Positions 10,441-47,292 of a stretch of DNA of 47,322 nucleotides are shown piece after piece. Source of the DNA: Candidatus Enterocola intestinipullorum (GTDB taxonomy: Bacteria; Bacteroidota; Bacteroidia; Bacteroidales; Paludibacteraceae); assembly GCA_017694565.1 (NCBI GenBank), contig JADIMR010000049.1:1-47322 (forward strand). Reading direction: 5' to 3'. Position numbers and translations under genes: made by a program. The number at the start of each line of letters is the position of its first letter. Position 1 is the first letter of the stretch. The notes under the pieces are model-generated. The model was not told where the DNA came from, made no database searches, and saw nothing but the letters and a program-made list of their open reading frames with translations.

Positions 10441-13212
10441 ATGAAAAAACTTTTCCTAATCGATGCCTACGCGATAATCTATCGCGCCTACTATGCCTTG
10501 TTGAACAACATAAGGTTCACCAACAAAGACGGCGTGAACACCGCGCCTGTTTACGGATTCCTGAACACTTTGCACGAAGTCATCAGCAAGGAGAATCCTA
10601 CGCACATGGCCGTGGCATTCGACACAGGAAAGACATTCAGGCACGAGGAGTACGAGCAATATAAGGCTCAACGTGAAAAAACCCCGGAAGACATAACCGC
10701 CGCCATCCCTTTTATAAAGAAGTTGGTACGGGCTTATAACATTCCTGTCATAGAAGCCCCGGGATACGAGGCGGACGACATAATCGCTTCCGTCGCGCGC
10801 AATGCGGAAGCACAGGGATTCGACAGTTACATGCTGACCCCTGATAAAGACTACTGCCAACTTGTGGACGACCATTGCTTTTTATACCGGCCTGTACACG
10901 GGGGCGGTTACGAAATAATGGGCGTTGAAGAAGTAAAGAAAAAATACGGATTCGACGACCCTAAGCAGATGATCGATTATTTGGGGCTTGTCGGCGACAA
11001 GTCCGACAATATTCCGGGGTGTCCGGGAGTGGGAGAGAAAACAGCCGGTACCTTGCTGAAACAATTCGGGACCATTGACAATCTATACGCCAACATCAAC
11101 GAAGTCAAAGGCGCGATCCAAGGCAAACTTTCGGCATACGAGGACCAAGTAAGATTGTCCCGCCGTCTGGCTACAATCAAAACGGATTTGGATTTGCCTT
11201 TTGACGAGAATGCCCTGGCTTTAAAAGATCCCGACCTGCCCGCCCTGAACGCGATTTTGGACGAATTGGAGATGAAATCGCAACAAAAGAAGATCAACAG
11301 TTACTACAAAAAGAATCAGCTCCCCGCGCAGAGCGAGGAAATTTCCCTTTTCGACATGGAAGATTTTGTCCCGAAAGACGAACCCTCCATCGCGAAAAAC
11401 GTCAAATTGCAATCCCTGCAAAACTATCCCCACGATTTCCATATACTGCAAAGCCCCGGACAAGTTGAAAGTTTCTTCAACAAGTTGGCGGAACAAAAAG
11501 AATTCTGCTTTGAAACCGAAACTTCTTCATCGGACGTGTTTTCTTGCGACTTGTTGGGAATCGCTTTCTCGTGGAAGAATTCCGAAGCATGGTTTTTGCC
11601 AATCGATTCCTTCAACCATGACCTGTATGTGGAAAAATTGCGCCCGGTTTTTTCCGACCCCGGCATAAAAAAAATATCCAACGACATAAAAAAATCCTAC
11701 TCCGTTCTAAAAATACAAGGCATCGTACTATCCGGCGGGCTTTTCGACAATACGATTGCCCATTATCTGTTACAGGCCGAATCCCGCCATGACCTTGCAG
11801 CCCTTGCGGAGCTTTATCTCGGTTACGAGCCTGCCGGGTTGGAAAAAATAGCAGGACCGGCAGGAAAAAGACAGAAATCCCTCAAAGACGTGGCATTGCC
11901 CGATCTGGCAACATTTGCCTGCGAAAACACGGAAACAGGATTCCGGCTGTACAAGACATTGCGCGACAGACTTGGGACAGCAGGCGTGGAAAGCTTGTTC
12001 TACAATGTGGAAATGCCCCTATCCATCTGCCTTGCCGATATGGAAATGGCAGGAGTCCGCATAGATTCCGATGCCTTGCGGGCATATTCAGCCACATTGG
12101 GCAAGGAAGCTGCAAGGATAGAATCCCTGATTTACGGATATGCAGGAGAGGAATTGAACATAAACTCCCCAAAACAAGTCGGGGAATTGCTTTTTGACAA
12201 ACTCCAATTGAGCGGCAAGGCAAAAAAAACAAGGAATGGGCAATATTCCACCTCGGAAGAGATTTTGGAAAGCTTGAAAGGACGGCATCCGGTAATATCG
12301 CTATTATTGGATTACCGGCGTATCAAAAAATTATTAAGCACATACGTAGACGCGCTTCCAAGCCTTATAAATCCTGTAACAGGCAAGATACATACTTCTT
12401 ATAACCAAACAGTTACCGCAACAGGACGCTTAAGCTCCGCCAATCCGAACCTGCAAAACATACCGGTACGCGAAGATATGGGACGGGAAATAAGACAAGC
12501 ATTCGTACCCGACAACGGGTGCATTTTCCTTTCAGCCGACTATTCCCAAATCGAACTGAGGCTGATGGCACATCTGAGCGGGGACGAACACATGTGCGAC
12601 GCATTCAAAAGCGGCAAGGACATACATGCCGCCACGGCAGCGAAAATATACAAGATGCCTTTGGACAAAATCACCAAGGACATGCGGCGCAAAGCCAAAA
12701 CCGCGAACTTCGGCATCATATACGGCATAACGGCATTCGGTCTGGCTGAACGGCTTACGATAGGCCGGGAAGAAGCCAAACAACTGATTGACGGATATTT
12801 CGAGAGCTACCCGAAAATAAAACAGTTCATTGACAACTGCATACTGTCGGCACGGGAAAAAGGTTACGCCGAAACCATACTGCACCGTAAAAGATACCTG
12901 CCCGACATTTCATCGGCAAATTCAGTAGTCAGGAAATTCGCCGAACGCAACGCCGTCAATGCTCCCATACAGGGCAGCGCTGCCGACATCATAAAAATCG
13001 CCATGGTAAACATACACCGCAAAATGAAAGAAGCCGGCCTGCGTTCGCAAATGATACTGCAAGTACACGATGAGTTGGATTTCAACGTCTACCCCGACGA
13101 ATTGGAAAGCGTAAAGGAAATCGTACGCGACGGCATGGAGAACGCCGTGAAACTGTCCGTCCCCCTCGTTGCCGACTGCGGCACGGGCAAAAACTGGTTG
13201 GAAAGCCATTGA
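10441..13212 (+). CDS. polA: DNA polymerase I
   Basis: MKKLFLIDAYAIIYRAYYAL 5'-nuclease start; 3'-5' exonuclease-like domain; polymerase motifs SADYSQIELRLMAHLSGD, RRKAKTANFGIIYGI, QVHDELDF. Confidence 0.97.
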   Translation: MKKLFLIDAYAIIYRAYYALLNNIRFTNKDGVNTAPVYGFLNTLHEVISKENPTHMAVAFDTGKTFRHEEYEQYKAQREKTPEDITAAIPFIKKLVRAYNIPVIEAPGYEADDIIASVARNAEAQGFDSYMLTPDKDYCQLVDDHCFLYRPVHGGGYEIMGVEEVKKKYGFDDPKQMIDYLGLVGDKSDNIPGCPGVGEKTAGTLLKQFGTIDNLYANINEVKGAIQGKLSAYEDQVRLSRRLATIKTDLDLPFDENALALKDPDLPALNAILDELEMKSQQKKINSYYKKNQLPAQSEEISLFDMEDFVPKDEPSIAKNVKLQSLQNYPHDFHILQSPGQVESFFNKLAEQKEFCFETETSSSDVFSCDLLGIAFSWKNSEAWFLPIDSFNHDLYVEKLRPVFSDPGIKKISNDIKKSYSVLKIQGIVLSGGLFDNTIAHYLLQAESRHDLAALAELYLGYEPAGLEKIAGPAGKRQKSLKDVALPDLATFACENTETGFRLYKTLRDRLGTAGVESLFYNVEMPLSICLADMEMAGVRIDSDALRAYSATLGKEAARIESLIYGYAGEELNINSPKQVGELLFDKLQLSGKAKKTRNGQYSTSEEILESLKGRHPVISLLLDYRRIKKLLSTYVDALPSLINPVTGKIHTSYNQTVTATGRLSSANPNLQNIPVREDMGREIRQAFVPDNGCIFLSADYSQIELRLMAHLSGDEHMCDAFKSGKDIHAATAAKIYKMPLDKITKDMRRKAKTANFGIIYGITAFGLAERLTIGREEAKQLIDGYFESYPKIKQFIDNCILSAREKGYAETILHRKRYLPDISSANSVVRKFAERNAVNAPIQGSAADIIKIAMVNIHRKMKEAGLRSQMILQVHDELDFNVYPDELESVKEIVRDGMENAVKLSVPLVADCGTGKNWLESH

Positions 13213-28970: not shown

Positions 28971-28980
28971 ATATTTCCTT

Positions 28981-29034
28981 GTCTTATCCCCCGTGAAAAT
29001 TGCTAATGCAATTTTCACAGCCCCCAGAGGGGGC
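28981..29034 (+). repeat. Modular variable-hairpin repeat, copy A2
   Basis: GTCTTATCCCCCG-[TGAAAATTGC taat GCAATTTTCA]-CAGCCCCCAGAGGGGGC. Confidence 0.9.
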
Positions 29035-29073
29035 ATGGGCATTTCCGCTTCGCTACAATGTCCATGCCCATGT

Positions 29074-29136
29074 CATTGTCTCATCCCCCGGATTTAGCCT
29101 TTGGCTAAATCCTGCCCCCAGAGGGGGCGACCTTCC
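29074..29136 (+). repeat. Modular variable-hairpin repeat, copy A3
   Basis: CATTGTCTCATCCCCC-[GGATTTAGCC ttt GGCTAAATCC]-TGCCCCCAGAGGGGGCGACCTTCC. Confidence 0.9.
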
Positions 29137-31744: not shown

Positions 31745-31770
31745 GAATTACAGTTTCACTGTGATTCGGT
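31742..31770 (-). other. Gene-end hairpin embedding the phosphorylase stop codon
   Basis: ACCGAATTACAGT-ttc-ACTGTGATTCGGT: 13-bp arms, one mismatch; stop TAA (31748-31750) lies in the stem. Confidence 0.75.
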
Positions 31771-37963: not shown

Positions 37964-38028
37964 GGTCGCCCCCTCTGGGGGCAGGAAATTCTTAATTAAA
38001 GAAGAATTTCCGGGGGATTAGACAATGG
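37964..38028 (-). repeat. Modular variable-hairpin repeat, copy A4 (inverted)
   Basis: GGTCGCCCCCTCTGGGGGCA-[GGAAATTCTT aattaaag AAGAATTTCC]-GGGGGATTAGACAATGG. Confidence 0.9.
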
Positions 38029-38030
38029 AT

Positions 38031-38063
38031 AGAAGTGATTGGCGCTACACGCAAATCACTTCT
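38031..38063 (-). other. Gene-end hairpin embedding a GH16 stop codon
   Basis: AGAAGTGATT-ggcgctacacgca-AATCACTTCT; stop codon at 38056-38058 lies in the stem. Confidence 0.8.
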
Positions 38064-39024
38064 TTTGGTAGATTCTCACGTAATCCACCCACATACTTGC
38101 TTTGAAATCGTTTTCTTCGTTGAGCGCGGTAATCTCGTCTGCCTTGAATATACCCGGGAAATTTCCTCCTACCGCAAGGTTGAGTATCACGAAATACGGC
38201 ACCTGCAAATAGTTGCCCGGAACGGTCGGATCGTCAGGTTTGACCTCGGACACATCGATTGTAAAATACGGCGGTATGTCGGGATATTTGTCCAAATCCA
38301 CATAGCAACTGCCTGATTTGTCATCCCATATCCATGTGAACAAGTGGTACTCGCCGTCTTGCATGGTATAGCCGTAAGTCGTACTTTGGGCATGTTGCTT
38401 GTGCTGGTCCCAACGCGGTCCCCAATGGAAAGCTCCATTGAAATATTTCCCCGCACCCTCTTCTCCGAGACGATAGCTGTTGGAGTGTCCCATTTCAAGT
38501 ATGTCGAACTCGCCGCACGCGGGCCAGCCCACTTCATCGAAGTTGTTGCCCATCGCCCACCATGCCGGCCACAATCCTTTGTAGGTATTCGGCATTTTAA
38601 TCAATGCCTCGAATTTGCCTTGTTTGAATGCCACCTTGTTTTTAGTGTTTACACGGCCCGATGTGAAGTTTTTGCCGTTATACAGTTCCTTTTCCCGCTG
38701 TGCCGTAAGAACCAAGCACCTGCGGTTGGTTTCAGGGTCGGTTTGTATGCTCACGTTGTCGCGGCGGTAATATTGCAGCTCGTTGTTGCCGCCCCCGTTG
38801 CCGTTTACCTCTATGTTCCAGTCTTCTTCATTAAGCACTTCACCGTCGAACAGGTCTTCCCAAACCAACACATAGCCGTCTGTTTCGCCGGACCCTTCTT
38901 GTGAGGGCATGGTAGGAGCAGGGGGATCCGGTTCGCCTTCGTCGCCGCCTTTTTGTTCGCAGGCCGCAAACATCAGTGCCACAGCCGCCGCAGCCGCCAT
39001 ATAAAAGAATTTGCTGAATTTCAT
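38056..39024 (-). CDS. GH16 family lipoprotein
   Basis: MKFSKFFYMAAAAAVALMFAACEQKGG lipoprotein leader; GEFDILEMGHSN catalytic motif; ORF extends to 39081. Confidence 0.92.
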   Translation of the reverse strand: MKFSKFFYMAAAAAVALMFAACEQKGGDEGEPDPPAPTMPSQEGSGETDGYVLVWEDLFDGEVLNEEDWNIEVNGNGGGNNELQYYRRDNVSIQTDPETNRRCLVLTAQREKELYNGKNFTSGRVNTKNKVAFKQGKFEALIKMPNTYKGLWPAWWAMGNNFDEVGWPACGEFDILEMGHSNSYRLGEEGAGKYFNGAFHWGPRWDQHKQHAQSTTYGYTMQDGEYHLFTWIWDDKSGSCYVDLDKYPDIPPYFTIDVSEVKPDDPTVPGNYLQVPYFVILNLAVGGNFPGIFKADEITALNEENDFKASMWVDYVRIYQKK

Positions 39025-39037
39025 AGTATATTGATTT
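38946..39037 (-). repeat. Duplicated leader cassette, copy 1
   Basis: 92 bp nearly identical (2 differences) to 40178-40269; covers upstream region, start and signal peptide. Confidence 0.9.
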
Positions 39038-39065
39038 TTTAGTTTCTTTCTAACCACTAACCACT

Positions 39066-39091
39066 GCGGCAACGCCGCCACTATCCACTAC
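39066..39091 (+). repeat. Heptamer units interrupted by GCGGC/GCCGC hairpin
   Basis: ...AACCACTAACCACT-GCGGCaacGCCGC-CACTATCCACTA. Confidence 0.7.
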
Positions 39092-39142
39092 GGATGTATG
39101 AATTGGAATAATCGCTCTGCGATTATTCCAATTCATACATCC
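39092..39142 (-). other. 24-bp perfect gene-end hairpin copying the last codons and stop of a GH16 gene
   Basis: GGATGTATGAATTGGAATAATCGC-tct-GCGATTATTCCAATTCATACATCC; the right arm contains stop 39123-39125 and the codons for RMYELE. Confidence 0.92.
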
Positions 39143-40256
39143 TCACCCAATCCACTTTCATTTGGACGGGGAATATGCTGTCATCGATAGGTTCCGCCCC
39201 ACCGAATTGCCCGCCAATCGCCATGTTCAAAATCACATAGAAATCCTGGTCGAAGGGCCAATCCTGCCATGTGCTGTTGAACCATGTAGTTTGTGACCAA
39301 CGGCCTACCTCCTCTCCATCGAAGGTGAACAAAAGCAAGTCGTTGCCGTTCTGGTAATCGTCTATCCACTCAATGCCATAAGTATGGAAATGGTCGGCCA
39401 CGTTGTCGTATGTCTTGGTTTGGTTCCACGCGCTGCCTTGCGAACCTACGTTACCGTTGCGATTGTTGGTATGCGCTGCCACTGAAACCCGGTTGGGTAT
39501 GCTGCCCACGTGTTCCACAATGTCCACCTCGCCGCTGCGCGGCCAACCGCCGTAAACGCTTTCGTTGGGCATCAGCCAGAATGCGCACCATGTACCCGCC
39601 CCCGAAGGGAAACTGATACTTGCCTCTATCTTTCCGTATTTGATAAATGCTTTTCCCGAAGTATTGATACGCCCCGAAGTATACTCATATTCGTTTACAT
39701 GACCTGTCGCAGTCGGGCGTTCCCAATGCTCTTTCTTTCCGGTTATTACGAGATAACCGTTCTCGACGCTTACATTCTGTTGCAGGTAACATTGTTTTTC
39801 TTGATTACGGCCTCCGCCTTCTTCATAGTTCCAATAAGCGGTATTGAGTTCCGTTCCGTCGAAATTGTCTTCCCATACCAATTTGTAATTGCGTTCAGGC
39901 TCGTTTACAGTTACCATGCAATACTCTTCCACTCCATCGACTTTCGCCCATGCGAATGTTCTGCCGTATGCAAGAGCCGTAACCTTGCCTGTCGCGTCTA
40001 TTGAAGCAACCCTCTCGTTGTCCACGCTCCATGCCACTCGCGACATGTCGGCATTTGCAGGAGCAAAGGACGTTACGGACAACTGCAACGATTCTCCCAC
40101 ATCCAAAGTCGCAGCAGTTTCGTTGAGTTCGAGTGCGGTTATGGTTACAACGGGCGGAGTCGGTTCGCCTCCGTCGTCGCCTTTTTGTTCGCAGGCCGCA
40201 AACATCAATGCCACAGCCGCCGCAGCCGCCATATAAAAGAATTTGCTGAGTTTCAT
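39123..40256 (-). CDS. GH16 family lipoprotein with Big_2-like domain
   Basis: Leader MKLSKFFYMAAAAAVALMFAACEQKG; Big_2-like DVGESLQLSVTSFAPANADMSRVAWSVDNERVASIDATGKVTALAYG; GH16 GEVDIVEHVGS. Confidence 0.92.
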   Translation of the reverse strand: MKLSKFFYMAAAAAVALMFAACEQKGDDGGEPTPPVVTITALELNETAATLDVGESLQLSVTSFAPANADMSRVAWSVDNERVASIDATGKVTALAYGRTFAWAKVDGVEEYCMVTVNEPERNYKLVWEDNFDGTELNTAYWNYEEGGGRNQEKQCYLQQNVSVENGYLVITGKKEHWERPTATGHVNEYEYTSGRINTSGKAFIKYGKIEASISFPSGAGTWCAFWLMPNESVYGGWPRSGEVDIVEHVGSIPNRVSVAAHTNNRNGNVGSQGSAWNQTKTYDNVADHFHTYGIEWIDDYQNGNDLLLFTFDGEEVGRWSQTTWFNSTWQDWPFDQDFYVILNMAIGGQFGGAEPIDDSIFPVQMKVDWVRMYELE

Positions 40257-40459: not shown

Positions 40460-40481
40460 GAACAACGCCAAGTACTACCCA

Positions 40482-40572
40482 CTATCCACTAATCACTATC
40501 CACTGCCGCGAAGCGGCAAACTATCCACCGCGATGCTTCCATCGCTAACTATCCGCTAAACACTACCCACTG
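40482..40572 (+). repeat. Heptamer array with embedded hairpins
   Basis: ACCCACTATCCACTAATCACTATCCACT-GCCGCgaaGCGGC-AAACTATCCACC-GCGATGcttcCATCGC-TAACTATCCGCTAAACACTACCCACT. Confidence 0.75.
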
Positions 40573-40796: not shown

Positions 40797-41777
40797 TTAC
40801 TCTGCGGGCACATAGAAGAACACTGCGTCTACATCAACGCGGTTGCCGGCACCGTTTGCGGTGTATGTCCAAGCATACCATGCTTCGGCTGTGATGTCCT
40901 GGCTGAAATCCAAGCCCATCGAAACCAAATCAGCATACGAGAAAGTGAACACTTCCCAGTCGCCGTCTTTGTATTCGCCTGTGGAATCGGTAATCTCAAG
41001 CAAAGTTACAGTGTCGCCGCCGCCAAGGGGTGTCATGCCGATTTGCAACGATGTCGCAGGAGTGTATTGACCTTTCAAGATTATTACGAACTCGTGTTCG
41101 GCTGTAAGGTTCTTCAACTTGGGAAGTTCGGTATCAGTTGCCGACGCGATGCCCAAACCGCCGCAGATGTTGCCCCAGCAGCCTGCGGGTGTGGGGGAAG
41201 CGGCTGCAATCGAGAACCAGCCTTCTGCCTTGCCGAACGAGTTGACACCGGTTTGCGGAGCATCCGCAACTTCGGCAGCGGGATTCCAAACATAGTTCAC
41301 GCGGGTGGCATCTTCGGGAACGAGTGTTTCTCCCTCGAATGCACCGTTGCTGCGGAGGTCGGCAGTAATTTTGCCTGCGTTGCTCAGTTCATCGAAAGAC
41401 GACTGGTCGATTTGGAAAATGTAGTAGTCGCTACCGTTGAGCAAACCGCCGGTCTGTGAACCTGCGATTACTTGGATTGAGCATGTTTGGGTTTGTCCGT
41501 TATATTCGCAAGTGATGGTTGCATTGCCCTCGGCAACACCTGTTACGACACCCGCAGCAACAGTTGCGACAGCTTCATTATCAGTTGCCCACGTAGCCTG
41601 CGAAGTAACATCCACATCACCGCTTGTCGCGTTGATGGTAACTGTTTGTCCGGCTTCCACTACTGCGGAAGAGCGGCTCAATGAGAGATTGCCATCACCC
41701 TCTGCGCCATTGTTGCAACTTGCAAGAGCCAAGCCCATTACAGCTGCCAATGATAAAATCAAACTTCTTACTTTCAT
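40797..41777 (-). CDS. Surface lipoprotein with Big_2-like domain (candidate surface glycan-binding protein)
   Basis: Lipobox LALASCNN; SSAVVEAGQTVTINATSGDVDVTSQATWATDNEAVATVAAGVVTGVAEGNATITCEYNG; located directly after SusD. Confidence 0.75.
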   Translation of the reverse strand: MKVRSLILSLAAVMGLALASCNNGAEGDGNLSLSRSSAVVEAGQTVTINATSGDVDVTSQATWATDNEAVATVAAGVVTGVAEGNATITCEYNGQTQTCSIQVIAGSQTGGLLNGSDYYIFQIDQSSFDELSNAGKITADLRSNGAFEGETLVPEDATRVNYVWNPAAEVADAPQTGVNSFGKAEGWFSIAAASPTPAGCWGNICGGLGIASATDTELPKLKNLTAEHEFVIILKGQYTPATSLQIGMTPLGGGDTVTLLEITDSTGEYKDGDWEVFTFSYADLVSMGLDFSQDITAEAWYAWTYTANGAGNRVDVDAVFFYVPAE

Positions 41778-43577: not shown

Positions 43578-46500
43578 TCAGAAATCGAGATTTACACCGA
43601 AGGTGAACGAACGGGCCTGCGGATAGTTACCGAAGTCCACACCGTAGTTGCTGACCTCGGGGTCATAACCGGTATAGTTGGTTATGGTAAACAAGTTGTT
43701 TGCAGACACATAGAAACGCACCCTGTTGAAATGAGCCTTGCGTGTAAGCTCGCGCGGCAAAGTGTAACCCAATTGCAGGGTTTTCAAACGCAGGTAGCTG
43801 CCGTCTTCCACGAAGCGGCTCGATACCGCGAAGTTCTGCGAGTGGTTGGGATCGGGAATCGAACCGTCGCCGTTGGCGACACCGTCGTTCCATGCGTTCG
43901 CCATAACGGGGCTCAACTGGTTGGTGGCACCGGTAGATTCGGTACGCTCGCGCAAGGCGTTGTAGATTTCATTGCCGTAAACGCCTTGGAAGAACATCTG
44001 GAAGTCGATGCCTTTCCATTCCAAGCTGAAATTCAAACCGTAAGTCAACCACGGGAAGTTATTGCCTATGCCGGTGCGGTCGTTGTCGTCGATTTTGCCG
44101 TCGCCGTTAAGGTCTTCGTACTTGGCATCGCCGGCACCGTAACCCGAAGTATCGTTGGGCAAATATTCCTTGGCTTCCTCGTCGCTCTGGTAAACGCCAA
44201 GGTAATTGTAGCCCCAGTATTCGAATACGGGCATACCCACGTCGCAACGCCAGTATGTCGAAATTACGGGAGAACCTCCGTTAAGCGCGGTAAGTTCGTT
44301 TTGCACGAAAGACACATTGGCATCGATCGAGTATCTGAAATCGCCCACCATGTTCGAGTGGCCGAGAGAAATGTCTATACCCTGGTTGCGCATCGTACCC
44401 ACGTTGCCCATGAGGTAGTAGCGGTTGCCCACATGCGCGGGAGTGGTGATGTTCAGCAACATGTCGCGGGTGTCGCGGATATATCCGTCGACGGTAGCCG
44501 TCAACATTCCGCCCCACATGCTCAAATCCACACCCACGTTCCATTGTTCCGTGGTTTCCCATTTTCCGTTTTCGTTAACGTAAGTAAGGATGGTGGCACC
44601 CTGGCCGTTGAGATAATCCTGGTTTACACCGAACACGTAATCCACGAAAGTAGGACCTGCGGTGAACATGTTCATAGTGAAGTTGTCCTGGTCAATCGAC
44701 TGGTTACCCAACTGTCCCCAGCCGGCACGGATCTTCAACATGTCGAGGATGTCGCTGTGGTCTTTCAACCAGCTTTCCTCGCTCATGCGCCATGCCAAAG
44801 AAACTGATGGGAAGTAGCCCCAAGGATTCTGGGGGAACTTGGAAGAACCGTCCGCACGGAAGTTCACGGTAACCAAATAGCGGTTGTCGTAGCCGTAGAA
44901 CAAACGTCCGAAGAAAGATACCATGCGTTGGCGGTCTACCGTATCCGAAGAATACGATTTGTCCTCGGTGGTATTCGACAGGTACCAGTTGCTCTCGACA
45001 GGATTGAGGATGACTGCACCCGAACCGCCCATCGAATAATAGTCGTACTGTTCGGTAGATTGGCCCACCATTATGTTCATATTGTGCTTGCCGAAATCGC
45101 GGGCGTAGGTGATGGTGTTGTCCACCGTCCAACGCATCTGGCGGTACATGCTGCTCGACAAGAAATTCTTCTCAGCGTAATCGTAAGACGAATACTCGTA
45201 TTTGTTTCTGAATGATTTGTCGCGCACGTAGTACATGTCCATGCCGACAGAAGAATGCAAGGTAAGGCCTTCCACCGGAGTGATGTCCAAATATACATTG
45301 CCCACCCAGCGTTCAGCATTGTTTTCGGGGAAGCTTTCTTCCACCATCGTGAACGGGTTTGTTACGTTCTTGAAGTTGGACGAAGCCGCTATCTGGCCGC
45401 TCAAATCATCACCCACGTTATTGACTGCCCCGTCGGGGTAATGGGTGGGATCCCAAGGAGCCATAGCCAAAGCCGCGGACAAGATTGAAGAACCCGGGCT
45501 GGCGTTGTTCACGGTGGCGTTGCGGCCGCCGCTGTTCGAATACGAAAGGTTTTCGCCCACTTTCAACCATTTGCGTACTTTATAAGATGTGTTGGCACGT
45601 ATGGTGAAGCGGTGGTAATCGGATCCCATGATGGTACCTTCCTGCGAGAAGTAGCTACCGCTTATGGCATAGCTGAACTTGTCGTCCGCACCGTCGATCG
45701 ATACCGAGTAGTTTTGTATGGGGGCGTAGTTGTTGAACACCTCTTCCTGCCAATCGGTCTCCTGCTGCGAATAATCAAAAGATTCGGCTGTAGGGTAATA
45801 GGTGGAAGTTCCCAAGCGATAACCGTGCAACCACGTATTGAAATCCTGGTCCAAAGCCGCCTGTTCGCGGAGAGTTCCGGTAAAGCCGACCATAGTGCGC
45901 GCATAATCCTCGGCACCCATCAAATCGAGTTTTTTCCAAGCGTTCTGGAAACCTGCGTAAGCGTTCACCGAAATATTCGCCATGCTTTCCGTAGAGCCGG
46001 TCTTGGTCGTGATAAGCACCACGCCGTTAGCCGCACGCGAACCGTAAATCGCAGAAGAAGATGCATCCTTCAAGATTTCGGTGCTGGCAATGTCGTTAGG
46101 CGAAAGGAAGCTGATGTCTTCGACAATTATACCGTCCACAACATAAATAGGAGCGGAGCTGCCGTTCACTGATCCGATACCGCGGATGCGGATTTCGGCA
46201 GCCGCACCCGGCTGTCCCGAAGAAGAATTGACAGTTACACCGGCGGCACGTCCCTGCAAAGCCTGGTCCACGCTTGCGGCGGGAGTCTTTTGCAGCTGGT
46301 CGCCCTTCACCGAAGAAATAGCACCGGTAACGTCGCTCTTGCGCATCGTACCGTAACCCACGGCCACAAACTCTTCCAATTGCTCGGTTTCGACCGCCAG
46401 GGTTACATTGACAGTACCGGAGGTCGGCGTAATCGTTTGCGACTCGTAACCTAAATAAGAAAACGTGAGGCTTTGCCCGTCAGGTACTTCGAGCGTGTAA

Positions 46501-46667
46501 TTACCGTCGATGTCGGTAATCGTACCCGTTGTTGTCCCGGTAACGACAATGTTCACGCCCGGCTCACCCATTCCGGTGTCGTCGAGCATGACGTTACCAC
46601 TGACTTGCCTTGCGGACACCGTCGCACAGGCGACGGATAAAGCCAAAAAGAGCAAGAATTTTTTCAT
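43578..46667 (-). CDS. SusC/RagA family TonB-dependent receptor
   Basis: Carboxypeptidase-like N-domain (GVNIVVTGTTTGTITDIDGNYTLEV), plug VDQALQGRAAGVTV...IRIRGIGSVNGSSAPIYVVDG, C-terminal ARSFTFGVNLDF. Confidence 0.97.
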   Translation of the reverse strand: MKKFLLFLALSVACATVSARQVSGNVMLDDTGMGEPGVNIVVTGTTTGTITDIDGNYTLEVPDGQSLTFSYLGYESQTITPTSGTVNVTLAVETEQLEEFVAVGYGTMRKSDVTGAISSVKGDQLQKTPAASVDQALQGRAAGVTVNSSSGQPGAAAEIRIRGIGSVNGSSAPIYVVDGIIVEDISFLSPNDIASTEILKDASSSAIYGSRAANGVVLITTKTGSTESMANISVNAYAGFQNAWKKLDLMGAEDYARTMVGFTGTLREQAALDQDFNTWLHGYRLGTSTYYPTAESFDYSQQETDWQEEVFNNYAPIQNYSVSIDGADDKFSYAISGSYFSQEGTIMGSDYHRFTIRANTSYKVRKWLKVGENLSYSNSGGRNATVNNASPGSSILSAALAMAPWDPTHYPDGAVNNVGDDLSGQIAASSNFKNVTNPFTMVEESFPENNAERWVGNVYLDITPVEGLTLHSSVGMDMYYVRDKSFRNKYEYSSYDYAEKNFLSSSMYRQMRWTVDNTITYARDFGKHNMNIMVGQSTEQYDYYSMGGSGAVILNPVESNWYLSNTTEDKSYSSDTVDRQRMVSFFGRLFYGYDNRYLVTVNFRADGSSKFPQNPWGYFPSVSLAWRMSEESWLKDHSDILDMLKIRAGWGQLGNQSIDQDNFTMNMFTAGPTFVDYVFGVNQDYLNGQGATILTYVNENGKWETTEQWNVGVDLSMWGGMLTATVDGYIRDTRDMLLNITTPAHVGNRYYLMGNVGTMRNQGIDISLGHSNMVGDFRYSIDANVSFVQNELTALNGGSPVISTYWRCDVGMPVFEYWGYNYLGVYQSDEEAKEYLPNDTSGYGAGDAKYEDLNGDGKIDDNDRTGIGNNFPWLTYGLNFSLEWKGIDFQMFFQGVYGNEIYNALRERTESTGATNQLSPVMANAWNDGVANGDGSIPDPNHSQNFAVSSRFVEDGSYLRLKTLQLGYTLPRELTRKAHFNRVRFYVSANNLFTITNYTGYDPEVSNYGVDFGNYPQARSFTFGVNLDF

Positions 46668-47230: not shown

Positions 47231-47292
47231 GACCGCCCCCTCTGGGGGCAGTAAAATCATCTTTGATGATTTTACGGGGGATAAGACAATGG
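47231..47292 (-). repeat. Modular variable-hairpin repeat, copy A5 (inverted)
   Basis: GACCGCCCCCTCTGGGGGCAG-[TAAAATCATC ttt GATGATTTTA]-CGGGGGATAAGACAATGG. Confidence 0.9.

Follow-up and report, generated by a model that had tools for sequence, protein, structure and literature searches.

Template switching makes perfect stems in one event in RNA genes (PMC8794818), and quasipalindrome or template-switch mutation acts in E. coli reporters (PMC7202029). The products resemble the hairpin at the end of a GH16 gene of Candidatus Enterocola intestinipullorum in their one-step perfect stem, short loop, exact reverse-complement arms and absence from outgroups. That template switching can yield perfect hairpins has therefore been published; what differs here is that, in a single bacterial lineage, a whole class of them straddles the stop codons of protein-coding genes, and that the coding arm tells which way the copy was made. 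U-less hairpins and perfect inverted repeats, the latter peaking after bacterial stop codons (PMC13155455), are likewise stem-loops with a short spacer at gene ends (PMC8355165, PMC13155455). Their usual place is past the stop codon (reported peak at +50 to +80), whereas the hairpins of this class take in the stop codon and some coding sequence, and the GH16 one sits inside a gene cluster. Lineage-specific long perfect inverted repeats that touch coding sequence are also described for the coding palindromes of Nematomorpha mitochondria (PMC6649704); both arms are coding there, whereas here one arm codes and the other follows the stop codon. REP and BIME elements with their REP-associated transposases (PMC3733652, PMC2817692) share with this genome short dispersed intergenic palindromes, and one IS200-like Y1 transposase gene is found here. 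The GH16 hairpin differs from these elements in being single-copy with arms of local gene sequence; only a repeat that we call E forms a dispersed family, with variable hairpins. Membership of the GH16 hairpin in a REP or BIME family is ruled out, since a search allowing up to 3 mismatches finds its arm at a single genomic site.

The hairpin lies on the minus strand of the window, by which we mean the whole 47,322-nt stretch of DNA analysed. Its upstream, coding arm (39119–39142) consists of the last coding bases, the TAA stop codon (39123–39125) and TCGC; the loop (39116–39118) reads AGA in the sense RNA and TCT on the plus strand, and the downstream, non-coding arm (39092–39115) is an exact inverted copy of the gene end. 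All 24 of the 24 positions pair across the 3-nt loop, which places the stop codon and 17 coding nucleotides inside the stem and bears out the 24-bp perfect hairpin that an earlier note on this DNA had reported. That note had put the second arm 12 nt downstream, which is wrong; it begins 7 nt after the stop codon. The RNA fold of 39025–39160 reached –53.8 kcal/mol (z = –8.2). Chance origin is ruled out by the 24/24 pairing, and by the fact that 715 kb of the genome resampled once with a first-order model (roughly a dinucleotide shuffle) gave no perfect short-loop hairpin of at least 14 bp. Rfam covariance models gave no match at the locus up to E = 1.

The gene itself (39123–40256, minus strand), whose end appears to have been the source of the copy, matches Pfam Glyco_hydro_16 (2e-16) and Big_2 (1e-11). 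Its start codon is likely the ATG at 40256, and the N-terminus suggests that the product is a lipoprotein. It belongs to a cluster that runs from a SusC-like gene (43578–46667) through a SusD-like gene (41882), the gene at 40797 and three GH16 genes to a transporter-like gene (35139) and the gene at 31748; the SusC, SusD and transporter labels reflect our own reading of the sequences. Between the hairpin and the next gene of the cluster, a GH16-like one (38056–39024, minus strand), is an intergenic stretch (39025–39091, minus strand) with dispersed heptamer-type repeats (AGTGGTTAGTGGTTAG) and a small hairpin, without a U-tract. The end of this neighbouring GH16 gene carries a second, imperfect stop-spanning hairpin (38031–38063, minus strand; 14-nt arms, one mismatch, loop of 5), followed directly by a copy of repeat E (37968–38026, minus strand). 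As a separate observation, the first 43 residues of the two neighbouring GH16 proteins are 77% identical (40128–40256 versus 38896–39024), with catalytic parts about 40% alike, which suggests that the 5' ends of the genes may have been exchanged or duplicated.

The coding arm is homologous to other GH16 gene ends. The residues R-M-Y, encoded by its outer part, line up with the VDWVRxY terminus of distant orthologs; the VDxVRxY end is common to all of these and the downstream arm is present in none, one ortholog (L007) having an unrelated palindrome at its stop codon. The nearest GH16 orthologs found were less than 50% identical. Closer comparisons came from three further genes with hairpins at their stop codons, encoding AtpG, a SerB-like protein and an ABC-F ATPase. 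Their orthologs within the genus (about 50–90% amino-acid identity) keep the coding end, the arm is missing in every readable case, and several carry ordinary U-tract terminators further downstream. Since orthologs of four hairpin genes have the coding end but not the downstream arm, it is this non-coding arm that is derived, and it is specific to this lineage. This agrees with the proposal in the earlier note that the non-coding arm was copied from the gene end. The same comparison, which had been put forward there as the test of conserved function, speaks against such a function, as orthologs share the coding end and have no downstream arm.

A selected role for the hairpin would be that of a U-tract-less terminator or an mRNA 3'-end stabiliser, with its upstream arm in the coding end; selection on the RNA would have assembled and preserved the pairing. 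The very stable fold (z = –8.2), the location of such hairpins at gene ends and not at gene starts, and the frequency of U-less hairpins after stop codons (PMC8355165) are consistent with this role. However, a GC-rich stem and a U-tract directly after it, which mark intrinsic (Rho-independent) terminators, were both missing: only 9 of the 24 pairs are GC (38% GC), and the sense flank 3' of the hairpin (GUAGUGGAUAGUGG) contains no U-tract. The hairpin also sits between same-strand genes of one cluster, which a strong terminator would cut. The suggestion that the structure could act as a terminator therefore keeps little force. Ordinary U-tract terminators exist in the genome and Rho is present, which rules out loss of Rho as a driver of hairpin terminators. 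The pairing itself argues in the same direction. The U-less stop-spanning stems of this genome have cores without G·U pairs, and two have G·U pairs only in outer extensions; comparable stems in relatives contained G·U pairs in three of six cases. In these small numbers, the G·U-free cores would fit recent copying better than long selection on RNA structure. Taken with the orthologs that have no hairpin, we consider a selected terminator or stabiliser unlikely. A 24-bp stem could nevertheless delay 3'-to-5' degradation of the message from the upstream gene, or could be a target of a double-strand RNase.

One case outside this lineage supports a maintained structure. Three Aquirufa species keep a stop-centred hairpin in one orthologous gene (L037:5581–5613, L038:5577–5609, L041:5600–5632), although the reading frame that enters it differs in one of the three; the DNA or RNA structure there has outlasted the protein end, hinting that some stop-centred hairpins are maintained. 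Separately, two similar U-tract hairpins 340 nt apart (L183:12423–12454 and 12767–12798) differ near the stem base by a change in both paired positions (A-T to G-C).

The GH16 hairpin is one of many in its genome. We sampled 61 contigs (701 kb without N) of the 1.81-Mb genome, an incomplete draft of 119 contigs at 83.65% completeness, along with stretches of 15 genus mates (635 kb), of three family members (460 kb) and a mixed set of 80 loci (514 kb). Hairpins were counted if they had a stem of at least 16 bp, a loop of at most 8 and at most one mismatch, with long ORFs taken as genes. The genome sample contained 44 (15 with a T-tract, 29 without), compared to 11 in the genus (3 and 8), 15 in the family (9 and 6) and 8 in the mixed set (5 and 3). 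Hairpins spanning a stop codon numbered 11, 2, 0 and 1 in these samples, or 11 in 701 kb versus 2 in the 1.1 Mb of genus and family together, an 8.6-fold difference (p = 0.001); perfect stems of at least 22 bp numbered 14, 0, 2 and 0 (p = 9e-5 versus genus and family). U-less hairpins were in excess over the same relatives (p = 2e-4) and T-tract hairpins gave p = 0.11. These rates are sample-based and the categories were defined only after the data had been seen. The non-coding share was similar, at 10.7% in the genome and 10.2% in the genus sample. This lineage makes or keeps such gene-end hairpins at a rate several times that of its relatives.

The genes with stop-spanning hairpins include those for AtpG, the ABC-F ATPase, a FabG-like reductase, FeoB, two Omp85 proteins and a TonB receptor, and further ones for the SerB-like protein, a TPR protein and a LuxR-type regulator; the names AtpG, ABC-F, FabG and SerB reflect our own reading of the sequences. 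Convincing hairpins lay either outside coding sequence or across a gene end, and the handful within called ORFs were in ORFs that look spurious. Hairpins spanning stop codons were far more numerous than those spanning start codons. Loops of 3 nt (18 of 54) and 4 nt (12 of 54) were the commonest of all. In a separate view of loop position, loops were concentrated on the middle of the stop codon (offset –2), in four stems of at least 16 bp in the genome and two in the genus; ordinary terminators lay apart, at +18 to +60. Near this position the family sample added only a single case (offset 0), and those of the mixed set came from a single orthologous group. We regard this sharp peak as a lead.

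The same distribution bears on the possibility that the hairpin is an assembly or library artefact, such as a fold-back chimera. The draft state of the assembly, in 119 contigs, would allow for this. But the sequence is normal on both flanks of the GH16 hairpin, and the hairpins avoid coding interiors and fall exactly at gene ends, unlike artefacts. We therefore consider an artefact highly improbable.

We believe that the hairpin probably arose by a one-step inverted duplication of the gene end through intramolecular template switching, an origin that would need no dedicated function. It has exact reverse-complement arms and a short loop, and one arm is absent from outgroups that keep the other. 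The replicating strand just past the gene end would fold back at a short complementary seed (TCGC-AGA-GCGA), copy itself for about 20 nt, then unfold and resume, so that a single step would leave a perfect stem around a minimal loop. Events within genes would break the protein and be purged by selection. Past the stop codon, events would survive if the coding arm were the template, and perfect hairpins astride stop codons would result. Once transcribed, the stem of 24 bp may give the GH16 mRNA passive protection, or it may be a cleavage site between cistrons. The earlier note had likewise raised a template-switch or snap-back event; this is the simplest route to the derived arm, while the event itself is one that we infer, with the nearest GH16 orthologs less than 50% identical. 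The excess of stop-spanning over start-spanning hairpins counts against template switching to the extent that it fits a neutral process only if hairpins at 5' ends are harmful.

Hairpins without a U-tract were also found upstream of genes, at 1879–1923 in the window and at L210:10269–10314 and L189:576–624. These promoter-side hairpins are covered by template switching and not by the terminator account. All three are perfect over 21–23 bp, and their arms contain TACCTTTG/TATCTTTG on both strands, motifs that, in our view, look like the –7 promoter box of Bacteroidota with a mirrored, divergent partner.

ExoVII suppresses quasipalindrome mutation in E. coli, so its loss was a candidate cause of the hairpin excess. 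The ExoVII gene (xseA) is present in the genome, which rules out this candidate; that check found no repair defect.

A different route would be the insertion of a dispersed repeat beside genes, with the host flank duplicated in inverted orientation to form the first hairpin of the repeat. Repeat E has the order variable hairpin, CATTG, TCTTATCCCCCG, variable hairpin, CTGCCCCCAGAGGGGGC, or, written in brief, CATTGTCTTATCCCCCG-hairpin-CTGCCCCCAGAGGGGGC. Copies occur at 37968–38026, 28979–29128, 47235–47290 and about 45 other places, often in tandem; the sequence of the hairpin arms varies among copies and pairing is kept. A moderately strict pattern found 48 copies in this genome and none in 118 other genomes of the order, and a stricter pattern found 24 copies and none in 299 other genomes of the family; E is thus confined to this genome among about 415 screened. 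None was found in viral contigs. The hairpin excess, too, is confined to this genome. A strong hairpin preceded the E lead at 26 of 61 sites compared to 17 of 300 control sites, and E or an E-like lead comes immediately after several of the hairpins that span a stop codon (L122, L191, L192, L128 and the one at 38031 in the window). An E-like repeat would then spread by copying that leaves the inverted host flank, typically the last codons and stop codon, as its first hairpin, each insertion building its own hairpin from local sequence; the GH16 hairpin would be one such scar. However, the GH16 hairpin is followed by a heptamer repeat and not by E, and many E copies have related first hairpins and are hence non-independent. 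The general association is also weak: 12 of 28 U-less hairpins lie near repeats compared to 2 of 15 with a U-tract (p = 0.09), with 29% of the non-coding DNA near repeats, so that a strict link is suggestive only. We consider it quite doubtful that repeat E spreads in this way, and equally doubtful that the GH16 hairpin is a footprint of such an insertion.

Given its recurrence at other gene ends here and its rarity in relatives, the hairpin looks less like a conserved switch than like a DNA-copying error that this lineage makes or keeps unusually often. If the whole class was made in this way, the genome would be a natural record of one-step perfect hairpins, possible proto-terminators, at gene ends. 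The coding arm would then show which way the copying went, information that hairpins do not normally give. A rate several-fold off that of the genus could also make the cause, whether a repair gene, a repeat element or selection, mappable.

The heptamer repeats past the GH16 hairpin (39025–39091) recur at 40470–40500 and at many intergenic sites as AACCACT units, with at least 20 copies of AACCACTAACCACT-type words. Genus mates carry a different heptamer, AACTCCT, and similar intergenic heptamers are described for Beggiatoaceae (PMC4679880). The IS200-like Y1 transposase gene is single (L243:1429–1854, G000:C29; 141 aa) and occurs in only 2 of 16 genus genomes; the putative enzyme could help short palindromic repeats.
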